Shown here one piece after another: positions 686 to 36,751 of a stretch of 37,257 bases of DNA (its first letter is position 1; the number at the start of each line of letters is the position of its first letter). The position numbers and the translations under genes are program-made. The notes under the pieces were generated by a model. That model was not told where the DNA came from. It was given only the letters and a program-made list of their open reading frames with translations, and ran no database searches. Source of the stretch: a virus; IMG/VR virus record IMGVR_UViG_3300044633_000137, positions 1 to 37,257 of that record, one strand, 5' to 3'.

Positions 686-912
686 ATCTTCCATGCTTTA
701 CTTTTAATTTCGCTAGTCTTAGCGACTGATTCAAAGTGAGCCATGAGTTCGTTATAGCAAGAGATGCGTTGATATGCCTGTTCTCTTACTTCTGTTTGTT
801 CTGGATTAGAGTAAACGATGCGTTGCATTTGGTTGTCCACTAATTCCTTGACTGCATCTTGAAAATGCACGTCATTTAAAATATTTGCAATGGCCTGTGA
901 TTTATCAGACAT
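679..912 (-). CDS. Small hypothetical protein between portal and scaffold (77 aa)
   Basis: Starts at ATG 912, overlapping the end of the portal gene by 8 nt, so it is probably translationally coupled. The protein begins MSDKSQAIANILNDVHFQDA, looks mostly helical with no membrane segment, and has a basic end (KSKAWKIF). No family is recognised. The location, in the head-assembly block between portal and scaffold, suggests a head-morphogenesis accessory, but that is inference from synteny only. Confidence 0.7.
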   Translation of the reverse strand: MSDKSQAIANILNDVHFQDAVKELVDNQMQRIVYSNPEQTEVREQAYQRISCYNELMAHFESVAKTSEIKSKAWKIF

Positions 913-2998
913 TCATACTACCTTTTGCAATGTCATTGATCTTAGTAATAGAATCCATTACTGTTTTAGTTTGATTGTTCTTAGCTGTTTCAGTCATGTT
1001 AGCTGCATCTAGTTTTAGTTGCATTTCTTTCAACGCTAACTCAGCTGTCTGTACAAGTTCTTTTTGTTGTAACTCTAAAGACTTGCGTTGATTCTCTAAC
1101 TGCATTTGTTCACGATCTAGTTGGAGCTTAGCAGCTTCTGTTTGTGCTCTTAGTTGAGCCTTCTCACGTTCTACCTGAGCTAAGATTTCAGCTGCTTGTG
1201 TATTAGGATCAGCCTTTTCTTGTGATGCTTGTTGCATTACTTGCTGTTCAATCTCTGGGGTAATCTCATTCATGAATGCTGTAGCATCTTTGAATCCAGC
1301 CATGTGTACAAACTTAGCCAATGTATCTCTGTATTGTTTAATTGAGATGAGTGGATTGTTTACACCATAAGCCTGTAAGATTTGTTCTTGCTTACCTAAG
1401 ATCATTTGCATAGTAGCAAGTTGTTCTTGACGTGAGCCAGTACCTAAACCTACGTTGATAGTTACATTGTATTCTGTATCCCATTCACGAGGATCAAAAG
1501 GAACAAACTTACCATTAATACGAAGCGTTCTTACTGTATCTTGATACTTGCATAGTAATTGTAAGATACCTTTGAATAGTGATTTAACACCTGTTTCTGC
1601 AAAGATACGAGCAATCAACTCTAACTTACCATAAGATGCATTAGACATTGTAGCTACTGCTGCAGCTGTAACGTTTTGCAATACATCTGGACTTAAACCT
1701 TGTTGAGCATCGCTAACACCTGTACGTTTAGCTTGAACTCCATCTAAATACTCTAGCATTGGGAATGATTGTGCAGCACTTGACTGTACTGTTAATGGTA
1801 CGATTGCACCTGCATTCTTAACACGAATCACACCACCTGCTGTAGATGTTAATAAGTCATCTAAGTTTACTTGGCCTTCAACTGCTGCAATGCGTGAGTT
1901 GTTAGTTAAGTATAAGTTATCTAACATCTGACGAGTTACAGTAGACTTAATTAATTGAATATCTAATGTACGATCAGCTAATGATTGGCCATAGAATTTA
2001 TGTGGAATTGGTATTGGGCAGATAGAATGGAATGGTACATAATCGCACTCCATATCTTCTAAGATCTCATTAGATGCATATACAATGCGTCTTAGTTCTG
2101 CAATGCCATCTTCGTTGTAATCTACTTTAATGAAACATTCATACACTTCTACTAATTCCATAGAAATATCTTGAGTGCCCATGCTGTTAGGTTGTTCACC
2201 ACGAGAGTAACGAGCAATTCTTTCTGGGCTAAACTCTAATGTATCGCCAGACGCTAATGACTCTACCATATCTTTATCAAAACCCATCGCCACTAGTTCA
2301 GAACGAGTAAGCATCCTACGATGTGCTACGAATGGTGAATCTTGAATTGTCTTAGCACGCTTAGATATTAAGAACTCTTCTGGCGGTACATTTTCTACAA
2401 TGATCTTACCTTTGTTCTTGCTGCGTTTTAATGTAACGTTGTTTGATTTGCTGTATGTTGTTTGGCCAGTCATCTCATCAATGGATGATTCTTCAATGAT
2501 TTCTTGTGATGCTAGTTCTATCTCTGGATCTTGCATGAGCATCATTAGCTCATCATCTGATAGGCCTTCATACTTTTCTTTAGTAACATCTGTATCATCA
2601 TTCCAGTATGCTTTAACTACACCAGTCTTTTGTAGTAACGCATCTTTGAACCAGTTATGAAGTATTAAGAAGCCATCGTTATCTTTATAGAATACATGAT
2701 TAACTAATTGTGTGGCCTGCTCAGCATTTTGTTCGTCACCTTCTTTAGCTGGTGCAAACTCAACTACGTTATCACTAGAAGTAAATACACGAATGAGTTG
2801 TGGCAATGCACCATCAACTGCTTCAGCAACTTCACCTGTAACGATTGTAGACTTACCCTCAACTTCATTACCATATGGCTCACGAAGATAATACTCAAGG
2901 GCTTGTTGACGTTCATCTGTGGTATCTGTTTCTAGATAACCTAATGAGTCATCTATCTCAGCCTCAATAATCGTCTTTAATTTGTTAATATCAATCAT
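905..2998 (-). CDS. Portal protein (P22/podovirus-type head-tail connector)
   Basis: The dodecameric portal forms the DNA channel at one capsid vertex and is the docking site for the terminase and the tail. The protein is 697 aa. The N-terminal half has the pattern of P22-like portals, with REPYGNEVEGKSTIVTGEVA near residue 40 followed by LPQLIRVFTSSDNVVEFAP. The last ~110 residues are a long Gln/Glu/Lys/Ala helix, matching the C-terminal barrel of P22-type portals. It starts at ATG 2998, immediately after the TerL stop (no spacer), and overlaps the next gene by 8 nt. Family length and order (TerS-TerL-portal-scaffold-capsid) agree. Confidence 0.9.
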   Translation of the reverse strand: MIDINKLKTIIEAEIDDSLGYLETDTTDERQQALEYYLREPYGNEVEGKSTIVTGEVAEAVDGALPQLIRVFTSSDNVVEFAPAKEGDEQNAEQATQLVNHVFYKDNDGFLILHNWFKDALLQKTGVVKAYWNDDTDVTKEKYEGLSDDELMMLMQDPEIELASQEIIEESSIDEMTGQTTYSKSNNVTLKRSKNKGKIIVENVPPEEFLISKRAKTIQDSPFVAHRRMLTRSELVAMGFDKDMVESLASGDTLEFSPERIARYSRGEQPNSMGTQDISMELVEVYECFIKVDYNEDGIAELRRIVYASNEILEDMECDYVPFHSICPIPIPHKFYGQSLADRTLDIQLIKSTVTRQMLDNLYLTNNSRIAAVEGQVNLDDLLTSTAGGVIRVKNAGAIVPLTVQSSAAQSFPMLEYLDGVQAKRTGVSDAQQGLSPDVLQNVTAAAVATMSNASYGKLELIARIFAETGVKSLFKGILQLLCKYQDTVRTLRINGKFVPFDPREWDTEYNVTINVGLGTGSRQEQLATMQMILGKQEQILQAYGVNNPLISIKQYRDTLAKFVHMAGFKDATAFMNEITPEIEQQVMQQASQEKADPNTQAAEILAQVEREKAQLRAQTEAAKLQLDREQMQLENQRKSLELQQKELVQTAELALKEMQLKLDAANMTETAKNNQTKTVMDSITKINDIAKGSMNV

Positions 2999-4273
2999 CT
3001 ATACAATCCATTTATTATTAATGTTGAGAGGTTGACCCCAATCAGAGCCACTTTCATCTAAGCCTACCGCTAAATATCTAAATGCGTCAGCAGCATGAGA
3101 GCACCAATCATGTAGTGGTGTGTCAAAGAATACGTTACGCTTCTCATCATATGTTCTACGATAGTTTCGTAATGCATCTATACCTTGCTTAACGTCTTTA
3201 TCAAACCAGCATCTAGGAAGTAATCTGCGTACTGCTTGAATTCCATCTGCAACTGGTAATTTCTTTACTACTGTAATCTCTAGTCCTGCATCTTGTAACA
3301 TCTCTTTACGAGATTTACCTGTACCTAATTCTCTTACCTCTACATCATGAGGTAACAACTGTACAGCATTATCCCAACCATTATCACGCAACCAAGCAAC
3401 ATAAGTATCCAATCCTTGTCCATGATTTTCATAAAAATCTACAAGTCTTATTTCCTTACCTACTACTTGTGCTACCCAAATTGCTGTGCTATCTGATATA
3501 CCTAAGTCCCATGCACAATATGTCTTTGCTAGTTCTTCTCTAGGTATAGATGTTATCTTATTATTCTTTTCTAAATCATTAATGATCTGGCCATAGTATG
3601 AACCTTCTACCGCTGCATTAAATGAGCATTCAAATTCTTGGTTATACTTATCTTCACCCATCTCATTTTTAGCTGAGGCTAATTCATTTGCATCTATCAA
3701 CTGTGTTTGTGATGCTTTAAACTCTAGTAATTTCCATTGATCGTCACCTTTGTCAGCACGATCCCTTAAATCTTTAAAGTGATTATTGCCTTTAGGTGTA
3801 CCAATAAACATTGCCCAACCTAAACGATCAGATAATGCTGGTCTAACAACTTCACTAAATATACTTGGGTTTACGTCACCAATCTCATCAATCACTACAC
3901 CATCTAAATAGATGCCACGAAGTGAGTCTGGTGAATCTGCTCCGTATAATGAAATACGTCTGCCCATGAAATCAACTCTTAACTCTGCTATGTTAGCAAT
4001 AGCACCTAATGGCCTTGTATAGTTAAGTAAGTAATCCCATGCAATACGTTTACATTGTGAGTATGTTGGAGCAATGTATGCAAATCTTGGATTAGGTTTA
4101 TCACACAGTAGTGATGAATGTATCAACTGATTTATGGCTGATACCGTCTTGCCCATACGTCTATGAGCTACCACTACTGTGAACCTGTTGTCCTTCACCA
4201 TTTGGTGAATCAACTTCTGTGGTTCTCTGGGCTGATACCCAGTATTTAGAACGTCATTCAATTCCTGTAACAA
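2999..4273 (-). CDS. terL: Terminase large subunit
   Basis: ATP-driven packaging motor and headful or end-cutting nuclease. The ATPase domain shows Walker A AHRRMGKT (residues 36-43), Walker B GVVIDE (D129 E130) and the coupling motif GTPKGNN (about 159-165). The RNase H-like nuclease has WDLGISDSTA (D256), LPHDVEVREL (D310) and HDWCSHAADAF (D396), giving three acidic metal ligands. The start is uncertain: 4273 is TTG, another TTG lies at 4261, and the first ATG is at residue 25. The TTGs overlap the end of the small-subunit gene, and coupling is likely. The 424-aa length is typical for podovirus terminases of this type. Confidence 0.93.
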   Translation of the reverse strand: MLQELNDVLNTGYQPREPQKLIHQMVKDNRFTVVVAHRRMGKTVSAINQLIHSSLLCDKPNPRFAYIAPTYSQCKRIAWDYLLNYTRPLGAIANIAELRVDFMGRRISLYGADSPDSLRGIYLDGVVIDEIGDVNPSIFSEVVRPALSDRLGWAMFIGTPKGNNHFKDLRDRADKGDDQWKLLEFKASQTQLIDANELASAKNEMGEDKYNQEFECSFNAAVEGSYYGQIINDLEKNNKITSIPREELAKTYCAWDLGISDSTAIWVAQVVGKEIRLVDFYENHGQGLDTYVAWLRDNGWDNAVQLLPHDVEVRELGTGKSRKEMLQDAGLEITVVKKLPVADGIQAVRRLLPRCWFDKDVKQGIDALRNYRRTYDEKRNVFFDTPLHDWCSHAADAFRYLAVGLDESGSDWGQPLNINNKWIV

Positions 4274-10702: not shown

Positions 10703-10851
10703 ATCAAATCATTAAATTATTAAAAGAATCAGCAGATGATCTTAAAGCTGACAATGATAAGGCGGAGGCTAAAGAAAATGGATCAGCAAATGTTTTACGA
10801 TCAAGTGATGGCAGAATTACACCAACAACAGATGAAGGAGCAAGAGAATGA
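10693..10851 (+). CDS. Small acidic hypothetical protein (52 aa)
   Basis: Start taken as TTG 10693, which has AGGAG seven bases upstream and overlaps the previous stop. The product (DLDQIIKLLKESADDLKADN then a Glu/Lys/Ser/Thr-rich tail) looks like a short helix plus a disordered end. It ends in an ATGA overlap with the annealing-protein gene, so it belongs to that operon. No family recognised. Confidence 0.55.
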   Translation: MDLDQIIKLLKESADDLKADNDKAEAKENGSANVLRSSDGRITPTTDEGARE

Positions 10852-11378
10852 GCAAGTACTTAGAACTACGCAAGATTGATGTTTCAGAACATATTGAAAA
10901 GAAAAATAATCTTTCATATTTATCATGGGCATGGGCTGTAGATACATTGCTTCAGCAAGATCCAGCAGCTACATGGGAATATAAAGAGCCAGCAAAATTT
11001 GGCGAAACACTTATGGTGTTTTGTTCTGTAAGTGCCTTTGGCAAAACAATGACAGCACAATTACCTGTAATGGATTATCGTAACAAAGCTATTATTAATC
11101 CAGATGCTTTTGCAGTTAATACAGCTATGCAACGTTGTTTAGCTAAAGCTATTGCATTACATGGAATTGGCCTATACATATATTCTGGTGAAGATATAGC
11201 TCCAGATGTTACTGTAAAAGAAGTTGAGCCTATTACAGATGATGATGTTGAAGTGGCTAAAGGCCAACTTGTATTAGCAAAAGAAGCTGGTGAACTAAAA
11301 GAAAAGTTCTTTAAGTTTAGCCCACAGATGCAAGAAAGACTTCGTGAGTTTGCTAATGAATTAAAGAAAGTTGCATGA
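10848..11378 (+). CDS. Single-strand annealing protein (DUF1071 / Sak3-like)
   Basis: A 176-aa protein. LSYLSWAWAVDTLLQQDPAA near residue 22, LPVMDYRNKAI, NPDAFAVNTAMQRCLAKAIA and LHGIGLYIYSGEDI are hallmarks of the DUF1071 (Sak3-type, Rad52-like) recombinases, which coat ssDNA and anneal complementary strands. It overlaps the exonuclease gene by ATGA, so exonuclease and annealing protein form a lambda Red-like pair. The C-terminal ~45 residues are a charged helix, probably for partner contact. Confidence 0.82.
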   Translation: MSKYLELRKIDVSEHIEKKNNLSYLSWAWAVDTLLQQDPAATWEYKEPAKFGETLMVFCSVSAFGKTMTAQLPVMDYRNKAIINPDAFAVNTAMQRCLAKAIALHGIGLYIYSGEDIAPDVTVKEVEPITDDDVEVAKGQLVLAKEAGELKEKFFKFSPQMQERLREFANELKKVA

Positions 11379-11923
11379 GTCATTTAAGGGACAGTAGGAG
11401 GCACAACGTCATTACCGCTAGTAATTCATATGCAGCAGTATATGAGAGGCAGAAATTATGGAGGCAGATGACTTTGCGTGAGCCTCCATTTGAAGGTAAT
11501 GAGATGACTGAATGGGGTGTCTTAAATGAACCTATAGCATTAAGTACGCTAGAAAAAGAACTTGATGATATAGTGGAGGCTGGTAACAAATTTGTTATGC
11601 ATAAGGAACTACCTTTTGGTGCTAGTCCAGATGGTTATTATAATGGGTCTGTAATTGAAATTAAGTGCCCTTACACGCAAGAAGTATATCCATCTATACC
11701 AGACAGGTACTATTTTCAAATGCAGCTCCAGATGGAAGTATGTGACGTTGATAGTGCATATTTTTATATCTGGACACCAAACGAAACAAAACTAGAAATA
11801 GTTGAAAGAAGTAAGTCATGGCTTGAATGGTATATGCCATTAGCACTAGAGTTTATGAAATATGTTGAAGATGACATAGAACCTAAACGCTGGACTAAGA
11901 AACCAATTTTTGTTAAGGAGTAA
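11375..11923 (+). CDS. YqaJ/lambda-type recombination exonuclease
   Basis: A 182-aa protein with ITASN (13-17), TEWGVLNEPIAL (E52), FGASPDGYYNGSVIEIKCPY (D86, E95-x-K97) and RYYFQMQLQMEV (Q115 region). These are the motifs of YqaJ viral recombinases (PF09588), which digest one strand of a duplex to expose ssDNA for the annealing protein encoded just upstream. The size is near the family minimum. The catalytic set looks complete. Confidence 0.88.
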   Translation: MSHLRDSRRHNVITASNSYAAVYERQKLWRQMTLREPPFEGNEMTEWGVLNEPIALSTLEKELDDIVEAGNKFVMHKELPFGASPDGYYNGSVIEIKCPYTQEVYPSIPDRYYFQMQLQMEVCDVDSAYFYIWTPNETKLEIVERSKSWLEWYMPLALEFMKYVEDDIEPKRWTKKPIFVKE

Positions 11924-11926
11924 CGT

Positions 11927-12151
11927 ATGGCAGAGTATGATAATACAAATAGTTTTGCACTATTTAAAAACGATAAGGGTGATAATCCTAAACGACCAGA
12001 CTACACAGGTAATTTAAATGTAGATGGTATTGAGTTTAGAGTTAGTGGCTGGATTCGTGAAGGTGCTAAAGGTAAGTTTATTTCTGGATCTGTGCAGTTA
12101 AAAGAAGTAACTACATCTAACGCTACAAATGAGGAAGATGCTCCCTTTTAG
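11927..12151 (+). CDS. SSB-like small protein with acidic C-terminal tip (74 aa)
   Basis: Begins MAEYDNTNSFALFKNDKGDN and continues with beta-rich sequence (DGIEFRVSGWIREGAKGKFI). It ends EEDAPF, like the acidic tip (DDDIPF) by which bacterial SSBs bind partner proteins. This small phage family usually accompanies annealing-protein and exonuclease genes. A role in ssDNA binding during recombination and replication is likely but not proven. GGAG lies before ATG 11927. The stop lies in the loop of a hairpin. Confidence 0.6.
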   Translation: MAEYDNTNSFALFKNDKGDNPKRPDYTGNLNVDGIEFRVSGWIREGAKGKFISGSVQLKEVTTSNATNEEDAPF

Positions 12152-12176: not shown

Positions 12177-12248
12177 CTATTTATTCATGACGTACATAGT
12201 CACTTCAAAGCCAAAACGCATTTCAGTAGCAGCTGGAGTTGTCCACAT
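12177..12248 (-). CDS. pqqA: PqqA, peptide precursor of pyrroloquinoline quinone
   Basis: A 23-codon gene (ATG 12248, TAG 12177-12179). It begins MWTTPAAT and continues EMRFGFEVTMYVMNK. PqqA peptides have a conserved Glu and Tyr spaced E-x3-Y inside GFEVTMY. Here they are E15 and Y19, the positions known for 23-residue PqqA. In PQQ synthesis PqqD presents the peptide, PqqE crosslinks Glu to Tyr, and the pair is cut out and oxidised to the cofactor. AAGGA lies eight bases before the ATG and a promoter lies upstream. The gene runs opposite to its neighbours. No other pqq gene is present, so host PqqB-E would do the chemistry. The match is full length. Chance is very unlikely. Confidence 0.93.
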   Translation of the reverse strand: MWTTPAATEMRFGFEVTMYVMNK

Positions 12249-12292
12249 AATAATATTCCTTAAAAGGTTTCTGGCTTATGCCATTAAGCGTA

Positions 12293-12321
12293 ATTATACA
12301 CCTTTTATAACGTCTTATAAA
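12293..12321 (-). promoter_or_regulatory. Promoter of pqqA
   Basis: On the - strand TTTATA (12321-12316), 17 nt, then a perfect TATAAT (12298-12293). The expected start near 12286 gives a leader of about 38 nt before the pqqA ATG. Because the flanking genes read rightward, this promoter serves pqqA alone. Confidence 0.75.
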
Positions 12322-12345: not shown

Positions 12346-12630
12346 ATGCAAAAAGTTGAACTAAGAGAATCTACAGTAAATGAATTATCCACTACACCAG
12401 AGGCAAGATTATTGCAGGCTATATTGCTTAAGGCTGTTGACGATGCAATGAATGGATATTCTACTGAACAAAAATCTGCATTATTTTTTTTATGGTCTAA
12501 GTCAAATCAACTAAGAGATTTATGTTTGTTATTTTCTAATTATGATATAGACTATGTTAAGAAAATGATTTACAGTAAAGTTAAAGATAAAGACTTAATT
12601 AAATTTATAGATTTAAATTATGGACATTAA
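12346..12630 (+). CDS. Hypothetical protein (94 aa)
   Basis: ATG 12346 begins MQKVELRESTVNELSTTPEA; no good ribosome site is visible, so the start is tentative. Mostly helical by composition (ARLLQAILLKAVDDAMNGYS, YVKKMIYSKVKDKDLIKFID). No family recognised. It overlaps the SleB-type gene by 11 nt and is probably the first gene after the pqqA island. Confidence 0.6.
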   Translation: MQKVELRESTVNELSTTPEARLLQAILLKAVDDAMNGYSTEQKSALFFLWSKSNQLRDLCLLFSNYDIDYVKKMIYSKVKDKDLIKFIDLNYGH

Positions 12631-12991: not shown

Positions 12992-13217
12992 ACCAATTGC
13001 ATTTTTAGTGGAGGAGTTTGACAGTACAGGTAAACTTGTATGGTCTGGACTTATGACTTCAGAGCCAACGTCTTTAGAAATTTCTCAAGATATAAAAAAC
13101 AAATTACATAATTGGACTATCACACCATTGCTCCCAGATACAAAGAATATTATTAAAGTAACTAACATCAAAAAGTACGACTCAAAAAAACTTGTGGAGG
13201 CTCATCTTGGCAACTAA
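12984..13217 (+). CDS. Hypothetical protein (77 aa)
   Basis: Start taken as GTG 12984 (overlapping the previous stop region, AAGG ten bases upstream); TTG 12975 is an alternative. Begins VTKPIAFLVEEFDSTGKLVW, a beta-rich segment, then a polar helical part. Related short proteins with KPIAxLVExxDxxG starts occur in many phages, without known function. It overlaps the glycosyltransferase gene by 11 nt. Confidence 0.6.
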   Translation: MTKPIAFLVEEFDSTGKLVWSGLMTSEPTSLEISQDIKNKLHNWTITPLLPDTKNIIKVTNIKKYDSKKLVEAHLGN

Positions 13218-13944
13218 AACAAATCTATTTATTGCAACACCTATGTATGGTGGTTTATGTTATGGCACTTATCTTGAGTCTATGCTTAAGCTGCAGGCAT
13301 GGCTTAATGCTAAAGACATAGAGGCATACTTTTCATTTCTTTATAATGAAAGTCTTATCACTAGAGGCCGCAATACTTTAGTGAATGACTTTTTAAAAGG
13401 TGACGCTACACATTTAATGTTTATTGATGCTGACATACAATTTGAAGCACAGCACTTATTAAAGATGATTGATGCAGACGTAGAAATTATATGTGGCCTG
13501 TACCCTAAAAAAGAAATTAACTGGGGTGGTGTGGCTTATGCTATTGAAAAGAAAGTTCCACAGGATCAACTTAAATACTTTACTGGCGAGTATGTAGTAA
13601 ATATGGTTGGCGATGCTAAGCAGCAACTTGTGCCATTAGATAAGCCATTTGAGATTAAACATGGCGGTACTGGGTTTATGTTAATTAAACGTGAAGTGTT
13701 TGAAAAGTTAAAAGATAAATGTCCATCATACACACACAATATGAGTGATGTAAATGATAACTCTGATTTAGGTGACAAGATAACAGAATACTTTGCCACT
13801 AGTATAGATGATCAAAATCATTTATTAAGTGAAGATTATCATTTCTGTAAACTAGCTCGTGATAATGGTATCAAGGTATGGGGTGCAGCATGGGCACAAT
13901 TAGGCCACACAGGAACTTATCAGTTTAGTGGCAGGCTTGTATGA
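13207..13944 (+). CDS. GT-A fold glycosyltransferase (GT2-like)
   Basis: A 245-aa protein. LFIATPMYGG begins the nucleotide-sugar domain, RGRNTLVNDFLKGD precedes HLMFIDADIQF with the metal-binding D74-A-D76, and GGTGFMLIKREVFEK lies in the acceptor half. SEDYHFCKLARDNGIKVWG matches the ED.dfc.R region of GT2-like enzymes. TTG 13207 is chosen because GGAGG lies six bases upstream. It overlaps the methyltransferase gene by ATGA. It probably decorates a host or virion glycan; the substrate is unknown. Confidence 0.78.
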   Translation: MATKTNLFIATPMYGGLCYGTYLESMLKLQAWLNAKDIEAYFSFLYNESLITRGRNTLVNDFLKGDATHLMFIDADIQFEAQHLLKMIDADVEIICGLYPKKEINWGGVAYAIEKKVPQDQLKYFTGEYVVNMVGDAKQQLVPLDKPFEIKHGGTGFMLIKREVFEKLKDKCPSYTHNMSDVNDNSDLGDKITEYFATSIDDQNHLLSEDYHFCKLARDNGIKVWGAAWAQLGHTGTYQFSGRLV

Positions 13945-14534
13945 TTATTCCTAATAACATGATTAGTCATGTAGGAAAAATATTTCAAGGTGAATATGCT
14001 ATTGGTGCTATGAAAGAACCATACATTATAGATATTGGTGCTAACGTAGGTGGATTTGCAGTCTGGGCACATGAGTACTTTGAACGACCAAAGATAGATT
14101 GTTATGAGCCTATAAAAGAAAACTTTAACTTGCTTAGACAAAATACAGCAGGTACTGATATAGCCATTAGGAACTTTGCCATAGGTAAAGAAGATGGTGA
14201 ACGTCAGATGTATTATGGCCTTCATAACTGTGGTGAGGCTAGTATGTTTGCAGGTGAGGAACAGGCCAAAGAAGGTGAGATAGTTAAGGTAATGTCAGCC
14301 AAACATCTTCCAGCGTGTGACATCATTAAAATTGATACAGAGGGTGCAGAGATTGAGATACTTGAAAACTTAGTGCATTTTCCTGTAGTGTTTCTTATAG
14401 AGTTTCATAGTGCATACAATCGTAGACGTATAGATGAATTACTACTTGACTATACGCTAATTGAGTGTACAATGCGTGGTTATAATTATGGTATTTTAAA
14501 ATATATTAGGAGTGAACTGTGTACACCAAATTAG
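13941..14534 (+). CDS. FkbM-family SAM-dependent methyltransferase
   Basis: A 197-aa protein with motif I YIIDIGANVGGFAVWA (29-43), CYEPIKENF (E56 binds the SAM ribose) and DIIKIDTEGAEIEIL (127-141), the signature of FkbM methyltransferases (PF05050). These typically O-methylate sugars. It is coupled to the glycosyltransferase by a 4-nt overlap, so the two probably modify the same glycan. The family match is strong; the substrate is inference. Confidence 0.88.
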   Translation: MIIPNNMISHVGKIFQGEYAIGAMKEPYIIDIGANVGGFAVWAHEYFERPKIDCYEPIKENFNLLRQNTAGTDIAIRNFAIGKEDGERQMYYGLHNCGEASMFAGEEQAKEGEIVKVMSAKHLPACDIIKIDTEGAEIEILENLVHFPVVFLIEFHSAYNRRRIDELLLDYTLIECTMRGYNYGILKYIRSELCTPN

Positions 14535-35800: not shown

Positions 35801-36751
35801 CTACTCTGCTAAGTCAGCAATAATTGCGTGAGCAGCTTGGTTCTTAACTTCTAATGTATATTCTACTAAAAGTTGAGTTACATCTGCGTCACCAGATTTA
35901 GCCAATTCATTTGTTTGGAATGGGCGTAAATATGCAACTGCTGCGTACTCTGGATCAAGAACAAATGCTTGTTCACCACTATCACCAGAATCTGCAGTCA
36001 TAAATCTGTTAGGAACAACAGATAATGTACCAAAGTCTGATAAGTAAATATCAGCTGCACCAATGATTGTAGTAGCTTTGTTGCTTGGAGCCATATAACG
36101 TTGAGCTGCAACACCTGTAAATGCAGATACATTTACTTTTTGTGTTGGAGTTGTCATAAGAATGGTTGGAGTACCACCATTAGTATATGCAGATTTAACT
36201 GCTGTTTTTAACATAGCTTCTGTGAAAGCTGCGTCTGTACCAGATACACGAGCTGTAGTGCCTAATGAACCAGCAGTACCGTTAGTGCCACCAACGTAGT
36301 TAGAATTTAACCATGTTTGTAGACCACCAAGTGTACGAGCTGTAGTAGCATTACCAGCTGCTGCAGCTGTGTTGCTTAAAAGTGCTTTTTCCATATCACG
36401 TTTAAGTTCAGCAGAAACTTTAGCTAATTGGTAAGCCTTTTCAGATTTACGACCAGCTTTGTTAATTGCTTCCATAGTACCAGAAATCTTAATTGTTTTT
36501 GAAGAGATCTGAGTTCTATTACCTACTCGTGTTGTTGGAGTTACTGTAATGTCAGAAGCTGTGTCACCTTCAACTACAGCATTAGATGCTGCTGCTGCGA
36601 GTGAGTCAGTTTGCCATTCGTGATATGTTGCTGTTGCCTTTGTCTTACCAATAGAACTCATAAATGGAGTTTCTGTAGGTGAAATGTTATAAATAACATC
36701 TGACAAATCTTCTCTATTACCAATAGAGGTATAGGTTTGATACGTTGCCAT
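35801..36751 (-). CDS. Major capsid protein (SU10-like, DUF5309)
   Basis: A 316-aa protein. MATYQTYTSIGNREDLSDVI, YNISPTETPFMSSIGKTKAT, YHEWQTDSLAAAASNAVVEG, VGNRTQISSKTIKISGTMEA and ELKRDMEKALLSN are hallmarks of the SU10-type major capsid family (DUF5309, PF17236), which has the HK97 fold. The later part has DIYLSDFGTLSVVPNRFM and AAVAYLRPFQTNELAKSGDA. It forms the shell; the scaffold gene is directly upstream. Confidence 0.9.
   Translation of the reverse strand: MATYQTYTSIGNREDLSDVIYNISPTETPFMSSIGKTKATATYHEWQTDSLAAAASNAVVEGDTASDITVTPTTRVGNRTQISSKTIKISGTMEAINKAGRKSEKAYQLAKVSAELKRDMEKALLSNTAAAAGNATTARTLGGLQTWLNSNYVGGTNGTAGSLGTTARVSGTDAAFTEAMLKTAVKSAYTNGGTPTILMTTPTQKVNVSAFTGVAAQRYMAPSNKATTIIGAADIYLSDFGTLSVVPNRFMTADSGDSGEQAFVLDPEYAAVAYLRPFQTNELAKSGDADVTQLLVEYTLEVKNQAAHAIIADLAE

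Follow-up and report, generated by a model that had tools for sequence, protein, structure and literature searches.

A 23-codon pqqA gene in an SU10-like virus and its recurrence in phages of Methylophilales

Introduction

Why should a phage carry a reading frame of only 23 codons that resembles the precursor gene of a bacterial cofactor? The question is raised by a 37,257-base IMG/VR virus record (hereafter the window, meaning the whole stretch of DNA analysed), for which an earlier note, made from the letters alone, had proposed a phage-encoded PqqA. In PQQ synthesis, PqqE together with PqqD joins a Glu to a Tyr within PqqA, after which the cofactor is completed by proteolysis, PqqB and PqqC, so that each PQQ consumes one PqqA. 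Methanol oxidisers of the Methylophilales (OM43, LD28) abound in coastal seas and lakes. Here, we ask whether the frame is a true pqqA, whether phages keep it, and what it may do for them.

The reading frame and its product

The frame and the signals ahead of it are located as follows.

12177–12248, minus strand: pqqA, 23 codons plus TAG, encoding MWTTPAATEMRFGFEVTMYVMNK (based on translation, PF08042 and presence at the same site in relatives)
12257–12261, minus strand: Shine-Dalgarno sequence AAGGA, 8 bases ahead of the pqqA ATG
12293–12321, minus strand: promoter-like TTTATA-17-TATAAT, sigma-70-like, 10/12 consensus positions

Read from 12248 to 12177, the ORF runs from ATG to TAG, and its translation contains W2, P5, R11, GFEVTMY, E15 and Y19, all as the earlier note had described them; the note gave no strand, which is minus. 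With 23 residues and E15/Y19, the product falls into the PqqA length class of 22–24 residues and possesses the E-x-x-x-Y pair that becomes cross-linked. A profile search of the window proteins matched it to the Pfam family PqqA (PF08042) with 39.2 bits (E = 6.5e-10), and a second Pfam scan gave 38.1 bits, compared with a curated cut-off of 21.1 bits; the same family had zero matches across 14 control genomes. Because the match lies above the cut-off and the family is absent from the controls, profile comparison confirms the predicted peptide as a true PqqA rather than a chance ORF, so that both the proposed identification and a similarity beyond chance hold up. A PDB search with the peptide returned no match, which is unsurprising given its length, and PHROGs contains no family matching PqqA. 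No further PQQ or methanol gene was detected in the window.

Near identity with PqqA from Methylophilales had been predicted. A scan of bacterial contigs with the motif EMRFGFEVTMY yielded at least 128 PqqA frames, mostly from Methylophilales, and among the matches listed the commonest peptide (46 of these frames, plus several longer readings of it) is exactly MWTTPAATEMRFGFEVTMYVMNK, corresponding to 100% protein identity, in a sample that is biased towards similarity because the motif was taken from the window peptide. The best host DNA match to pqqA shows 94% identity over 66 bases. Bacterial Methylophilales PqqA (PF08042) and the phage peptide are thus alike in length, W2, P5, R11, the GFE-V-T-M-Y residues and the Glu/Tyr pair, whereas the phage gene stands alone, with its own promoter-like site and no adjacent pqqBCDE. 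Phage PqqA might conceivably act as a decoy, a substrate mimic that titrates and overloads PqqD/E, thereby lowering PQQ and slowing host growth. However, a peptide identical to host PqqA, with the reactive residues E15 and Y19 intact, is expected to be processed like any other PqqA and not to inhibit, which makes such a decoy very unlikely. Given this identity, the phage peptide is instead very likely a PqqE/PqqD substrate that would give rise to PQQ.

The carrier and the setting of pqqA

The following genes characterize the carrier and the surroundings of pqqA.

905–2998, minus strand: SU10-type portal protein (PF23899, E 1.5e-222), which marks the carrier as a phage
2999–4273, minus strand: terminase large subunit (phrog_2, E 5.1e-37)
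10848–11378, plus strand: Sak-type single-strand annealing protein, part of the adjacent recombination module (PF06378, E 2.2e-38)
11375–11923, plus strand: YqaJ-type exonuclease of the same module (PF09588, E 6.2e-14)
11927–12151, plus strand: ssb-like gene, convergent with pqqA and used as synteny anchor (PHROG single strand DNA binding protein, E 1.8e-15)
12346–12630, plus strand: 94-aa ORF of unknown function, divergent from pqqA (no Pfam or PHROG match)
35801–36751, minus strand: SU10-type major capsid protein (PF17236, E 3.6e-100)

The 37,257-base record is SU10-like, with portal, terminase and capsid genes all in the same record, and also encodes a phage lysozyme. Within its neighbourhood, pqqA is a lone minus-strand gene between the convergent ssb-like gene and the divergent 94-aa ORF. 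A search of 387 sequences gave no match to pqqB-E or host methanol dehydrogenases in the window or other viral loci, the sole pqq matches coming from a mislabelled Acinetobacter contig. The usual linkage of pqqA to pqqBCDE is therefore absent in the window and the other viral loci. This linkage is not a defining feature of PqqA, however, because most pqqA copies of Methylophilaceae lie away from the single pqqBCDE cluster (PMC4109929, PMC9851590). Judged by gene content, the record is a genuine phage genome in which pqqA is a metabolic gene of host origin. Elsewhere in the window, positions 13192–14534 contain a possible glycosyltransferase gene (weak Pfam matches only) followed by one for an FkbM-type methyltransferase, a pair that perhaps serves surface or virion glycan modification.

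Conservation, selection and expression signals

To follow the locus in relatives, we used the ssb-like protein as an anchor independent of pqqA and considered the best 80 of 440 viral-contig relatives. In all 78 contigs of this set with enough downstream DNA, pqqA lies on the opposite strand just past the ssb-like gene, mostly at a spacing of 24–40 bases. A profile search with the anchor added 8 contigs, 7 of which contain pqqA, so that site and orientation are the same in 85/86 testable contigs (best 80 of 440 plus 8 more), covering relatives at ~70–100% anchor identity. The frame is thus conserved in related phages, as the earlier note had supposed. The one exception, L397 (IMGVR_UViG_3300032224_000087), has no PqqA match in its whole 34,955-base record, and its ssb-like gene (3001–3237) runs straight into the next gene; pqqA may have been lost naturally here, or the host may need it less. 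Since this phage has lost pqqA, not every lineage requires the gene.

Across 38 distinct pqqA sequences, pN/pS is 0.086 at a pS of 0.48, and 6, 5 and 16 of the 22 columns vary at codon positions 1, 2 and 3, respectively. As far as substitution patterns and synteny can tell, these values show that strong purifying selection maintains pqqA, that its site is fixed and that it is not a passenger. PqqA is admittedly so conserved that a recent capture would resemble old retention at the protein level, and a chance passenger or host contamination without phage function could be envisaged on these grounds. This reading is countered by the fixed position in 85 of the 86 relatives, by purifying selection and by the presence of pqqA in complete isolate genomes (see below); moreover, the viral loci lack adjacent pqqB-E, whereas pqqB is present in 29 of ~120 bacterial 8-kb pqqA loci among the matches listed. 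Its probability is practically negligible, and for the lineage of the window it is refuted.

The same data bear on the idea that the stretch matters as DNA rather than as a coding sequence, for instance because its match to host pqqA makes it a site of attachment or recombination. Host pqqA genes are indeed multicopy and similar, with up to 94% identity to the phage gene. However, an att site needs identical DNA, whereas pqqA diverges freely at synonymous sites while the protein is kept; in addition, the Shine-Dalgarno sequence and start codon are retained in all relatives compared, and no integrase was found among the window proteins scanned (Pfam, PHROGs). Such a role is extremely unlikely, given the synonymous divergence, and we continue to regard pqqA as a coding gene.

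The AAGGA motif eight bases before the ATG was found where the earlier note had placed it, at 12261–12257 on the minus strand. In relatives, a Shine-Dalgarno-like motif occurs in 44/44 distinct upstream regions (shuffle mean 0.7), and a TATAAT box lies 26–60 bases upstream of pqqA in 29/44 (shuffle mean 2.4), although these sequences are related and do not represent independent trials. The claim of a dedicated promoter stands in part: the TTTATA-17-TATAAT element is present and its TATAAT box recurs in relatives, but the number of promoter-like sites in the pqqA region (3 found versus 3.3 expected) is not above chance, so that the case for a promoter rests on this recurrence. A sister group (L258, L265, L286, L292 and similar) has a different region upstream of pqqA, with the near-palindrome AAGCAAATTGCTT or a close variant ~20–35 bases upstream of the gene, directly ahead of the Shine-Dalgarno sequence; it may be an operator.

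A hidden gene of isolated methylophages

A tblastn search of 50,697 phage records with the window peptide returned 12 matches: P19250A (100% identity), the Manatee Spring environmental podovirus (95.7%), MEP301 and Venkman (91.3%), MEP401 and MEP402 (82.6%), four Melnitz records (72.7%) and two contigs named 'Acinetobacter phage MD-2021a'. An alphaproteobacterial-type PqqA query, typed from general knowledge, gave only weak matches to the same phage records. Frames of 23–24 codons are present in 9/9 Methylophilales-host isolates found in the collection, which span siphovirus, podovirus and myovirus lineages; MEP431–434 and Venkman EXVC038S are taxonomy names without a record found in the collection and lie outside this count, and a literature search for MEP431 returned no paper. 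P19250A, Venkman, MEP301, MEP401/402 and Melnitz share the PqqA frame with the window while differing from it in phage lineage and gene neighbourhood. Apart from the mislabelled Acinetobacter contigs, none of the 50,697 records is a carrier with a non-methylotroph host. 'Acinetobacter phage MD-2021a' was excluded as a phage carrier, the record opened (CAKLQF020000010.1, L247) being bacterial chromosomal DNA with pqqBCDE, ppk and fur; the second record is CAKLQH020000055.1, and at least the first is thus bacterial. Within the phage records searched, these comparisons show the predicted gene to be near-universal in methylophages and confined to phages of methylotrophs.

The gene has largely escaped annotation. 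In P19250A, MEP301, Venkman, MEP401 and MEP402, an unannotated gap exists where pqqA lies, whereas in Melnitz EXVC044M and the Manatee Spring phage an opposite-strand 'hypothetical protein' is called over it, and the other three Melnitz records have a hypothetical protein annotated at pqqA. The calls at MW202481.1 2067–2195 and MZ577097.1 76100–76195 are spurious-looking ORFs antisense to pqqA, and the true gene is masked because the wrong strand was called. The suspicion that pqqA may be present unseen in many related phages is thus borne out by 9/9 isolates and at least 119 viral contigs, and none of the records inspected annotates the gene as pqqA. Its context varies: it lies beside a recombination module in the window, the Manatee Spring phage and Venkman, adjoins tRNA-Leu and baseplate genes in Melnitz, and precedes gp69 in MEP402. 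These differing contexts suggest that methylophages acquired pqqA more than once, the 69-base gene being too short for a deciding tree.

The earlier note had allowed that methylophage pqqA might already be known, and it was indeed reported in 2020 from Lake Baikal, in methylophage population VP_266; the same study found methanol dehydrogenase in VP_139 and VP_266 (PMC7678222). In 2026, pqqA was also listed among virus-encoded genes in reservoirs (PMC13188868). VP_266 resembles the window in carrying pqqA, with the same proposed role, and is predicted to infect Methylophilaceae. However, it is a single T4-like case that also carries methanol dehydrogenase, whereas the window represents an SU10-like podovirus with pqqA alone. 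P19250A was said to encode none of the auxiliary metabolic genes reported in that study (PMC7678222), a statement contradicted, for pqqA, by its 100% identical frame. A text search of the Melnitz and MEP401/402 papers found no mention of phage pqqA, and within an incomplete coverage of the literature we found no paper noting its near-universality. Thus, phage pqqA itself is not new; what is new is its hidden near-universality in methylophages.

A proposed role in precursor supply for methanol oxidation

Judging from these relatives, we infer that the host of the window phage belongs to the Methylophilales. All 60 Methylophilaceae genomes searched contain pqqA (1–12 copies, median 5, at least 2 copies in 58/60), and PqqE was above the cut-off in 3/3 genomes tested, in line with the report that Methylophilaceae have several pqqA copies and usually one set of the remaining pqq genes (PMC4109929). 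As hosts already hold several copies, it is not evident what the phage would gain from a further one. Each PQQ made costs one PqqA, whereas the enzymes stay in the cell and can be used again, which would explain why only pqqA is carried; a phage with pqqA alone also matches its hosts' amplification of pqqA alone. The phage would transcribe pqqA from its own promoter during infection, and its product would pass through the PqqD/PqqE, protease, PqqB and PqqC steps of the host to yield PQQ, which would keep PQQ-dependent methanol dehydrogenase charged. With host transcription shut down, the phage would rely on existing enzymes but have to renew the PqqA substrate. What the sequences show is the coding frame, its conservation, the selection on it and its host distribution; expression in infection, entry into the host pathway, a gain in PQQ and a benefit to the phage are inferred. 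The chain proposed in the earlier note, from more PQQ through more methanol oxidation to more phage, agrees with all of this sequence evidence.

PQQ has several uses, and one Methylophilus genome contains many matches to the PQQ alcohol dehydrogenase family beyond methanol dehydrogenase proper, so a true PqqA might instead benefit another PQQ-dependent dehydrogenase or redox protection in the infected cell. Against this view, wherever the host of a carrier is known, it is an obligate or near-obligate methylotroph, and in such bacteria methanol dehydrogenase is the central PQQ enzyme; the Baikal population encodes PqqA together with this enzyme (PMC7678222). We consider a benefit other than methanol oxidation unlikely. 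By comparison, there is good reason to believe that the phage ORF functions as pqqA and serves Methylophilales phages as an auxiliary metabolic gene that replenishes the PQQ precursor. The broader proposal, that pqqA is a hidden near-core gene of siphovirus, podovirus and myovirus lineages infecting Methylophilales because the stoichiometric precursor, rather than the enzymes, is needed for methanol oxidation, appears somewhat favoured.

The psbA gene of cyanophages is a familiar auxiliary metabolic gene. Another guild provides phage pmoC in methane oxidisers (PMC10904782). Like these genes, pqqA would supply one component of the host's energy machinery, but it encodes a 23-residue cofactor precursor (a RiPP substrate) rather than an enzyme or reaction-centre subunit. 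If its role is as proposed, the gene for such a precursor would rank among the commonest metabolic genes in phages of methylotrophs. If methylophages routinely supply the precursor, methanol oxidation would continue in infected cells, and the supply of cofactor would be one limit on infection. With nine isolated carriers available, this role is testable now. The case also exposes an annotation blind spot: a gene of <30 codons, absent from PHROGs and unannotated as pqqA in the published genomes inspected, can be near-universal in a phage guild.

Extent among viral contigs

A scan of IMG/VR viral contigs with a degenerate PqqA DNA pattern that required neither a start nor a stop codon returned at least 119 loci. 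Among the matches listed, 119/119 are true PqqA frames, with a start 1–3 codons before W and a stop 22–23 codons past the first base of W, while a reversed control pattern of like specificity gave 1 match. Nested subsamples (13 of 119, then 15 of 119; complete final scan 32) suggest about 2,000–2,300 pqqA-bearing contigs in IMG/VR, uncertain by ~2-fold. Some of these contigs could be host DNA; none contains pqqB-E, among the matches listed. Based on shared ORFs, ten groups hold most of the at least 119 loci, the rest forming ~twenty singletons, and the large ORFs of group representatives match portals, DNA polymerase, ribonucleotide reductase and a UvsX-like recombinase in PHROGs, several being without a match. 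Nine loci (L005, L014, L016, L022, L029, L033, L040, L049, L057) encode another PqqA type, IRLGFEVTMYF..., unlike that of Methylophilales; the hosts of these phages are probably other PQQ-making bacteria. Finally, pqqA is found on the very large viral records L037 (356 kb), L059 (166 kb) and L067 (148 kb), and is therefore not limited to small podo- and siphoviruses.
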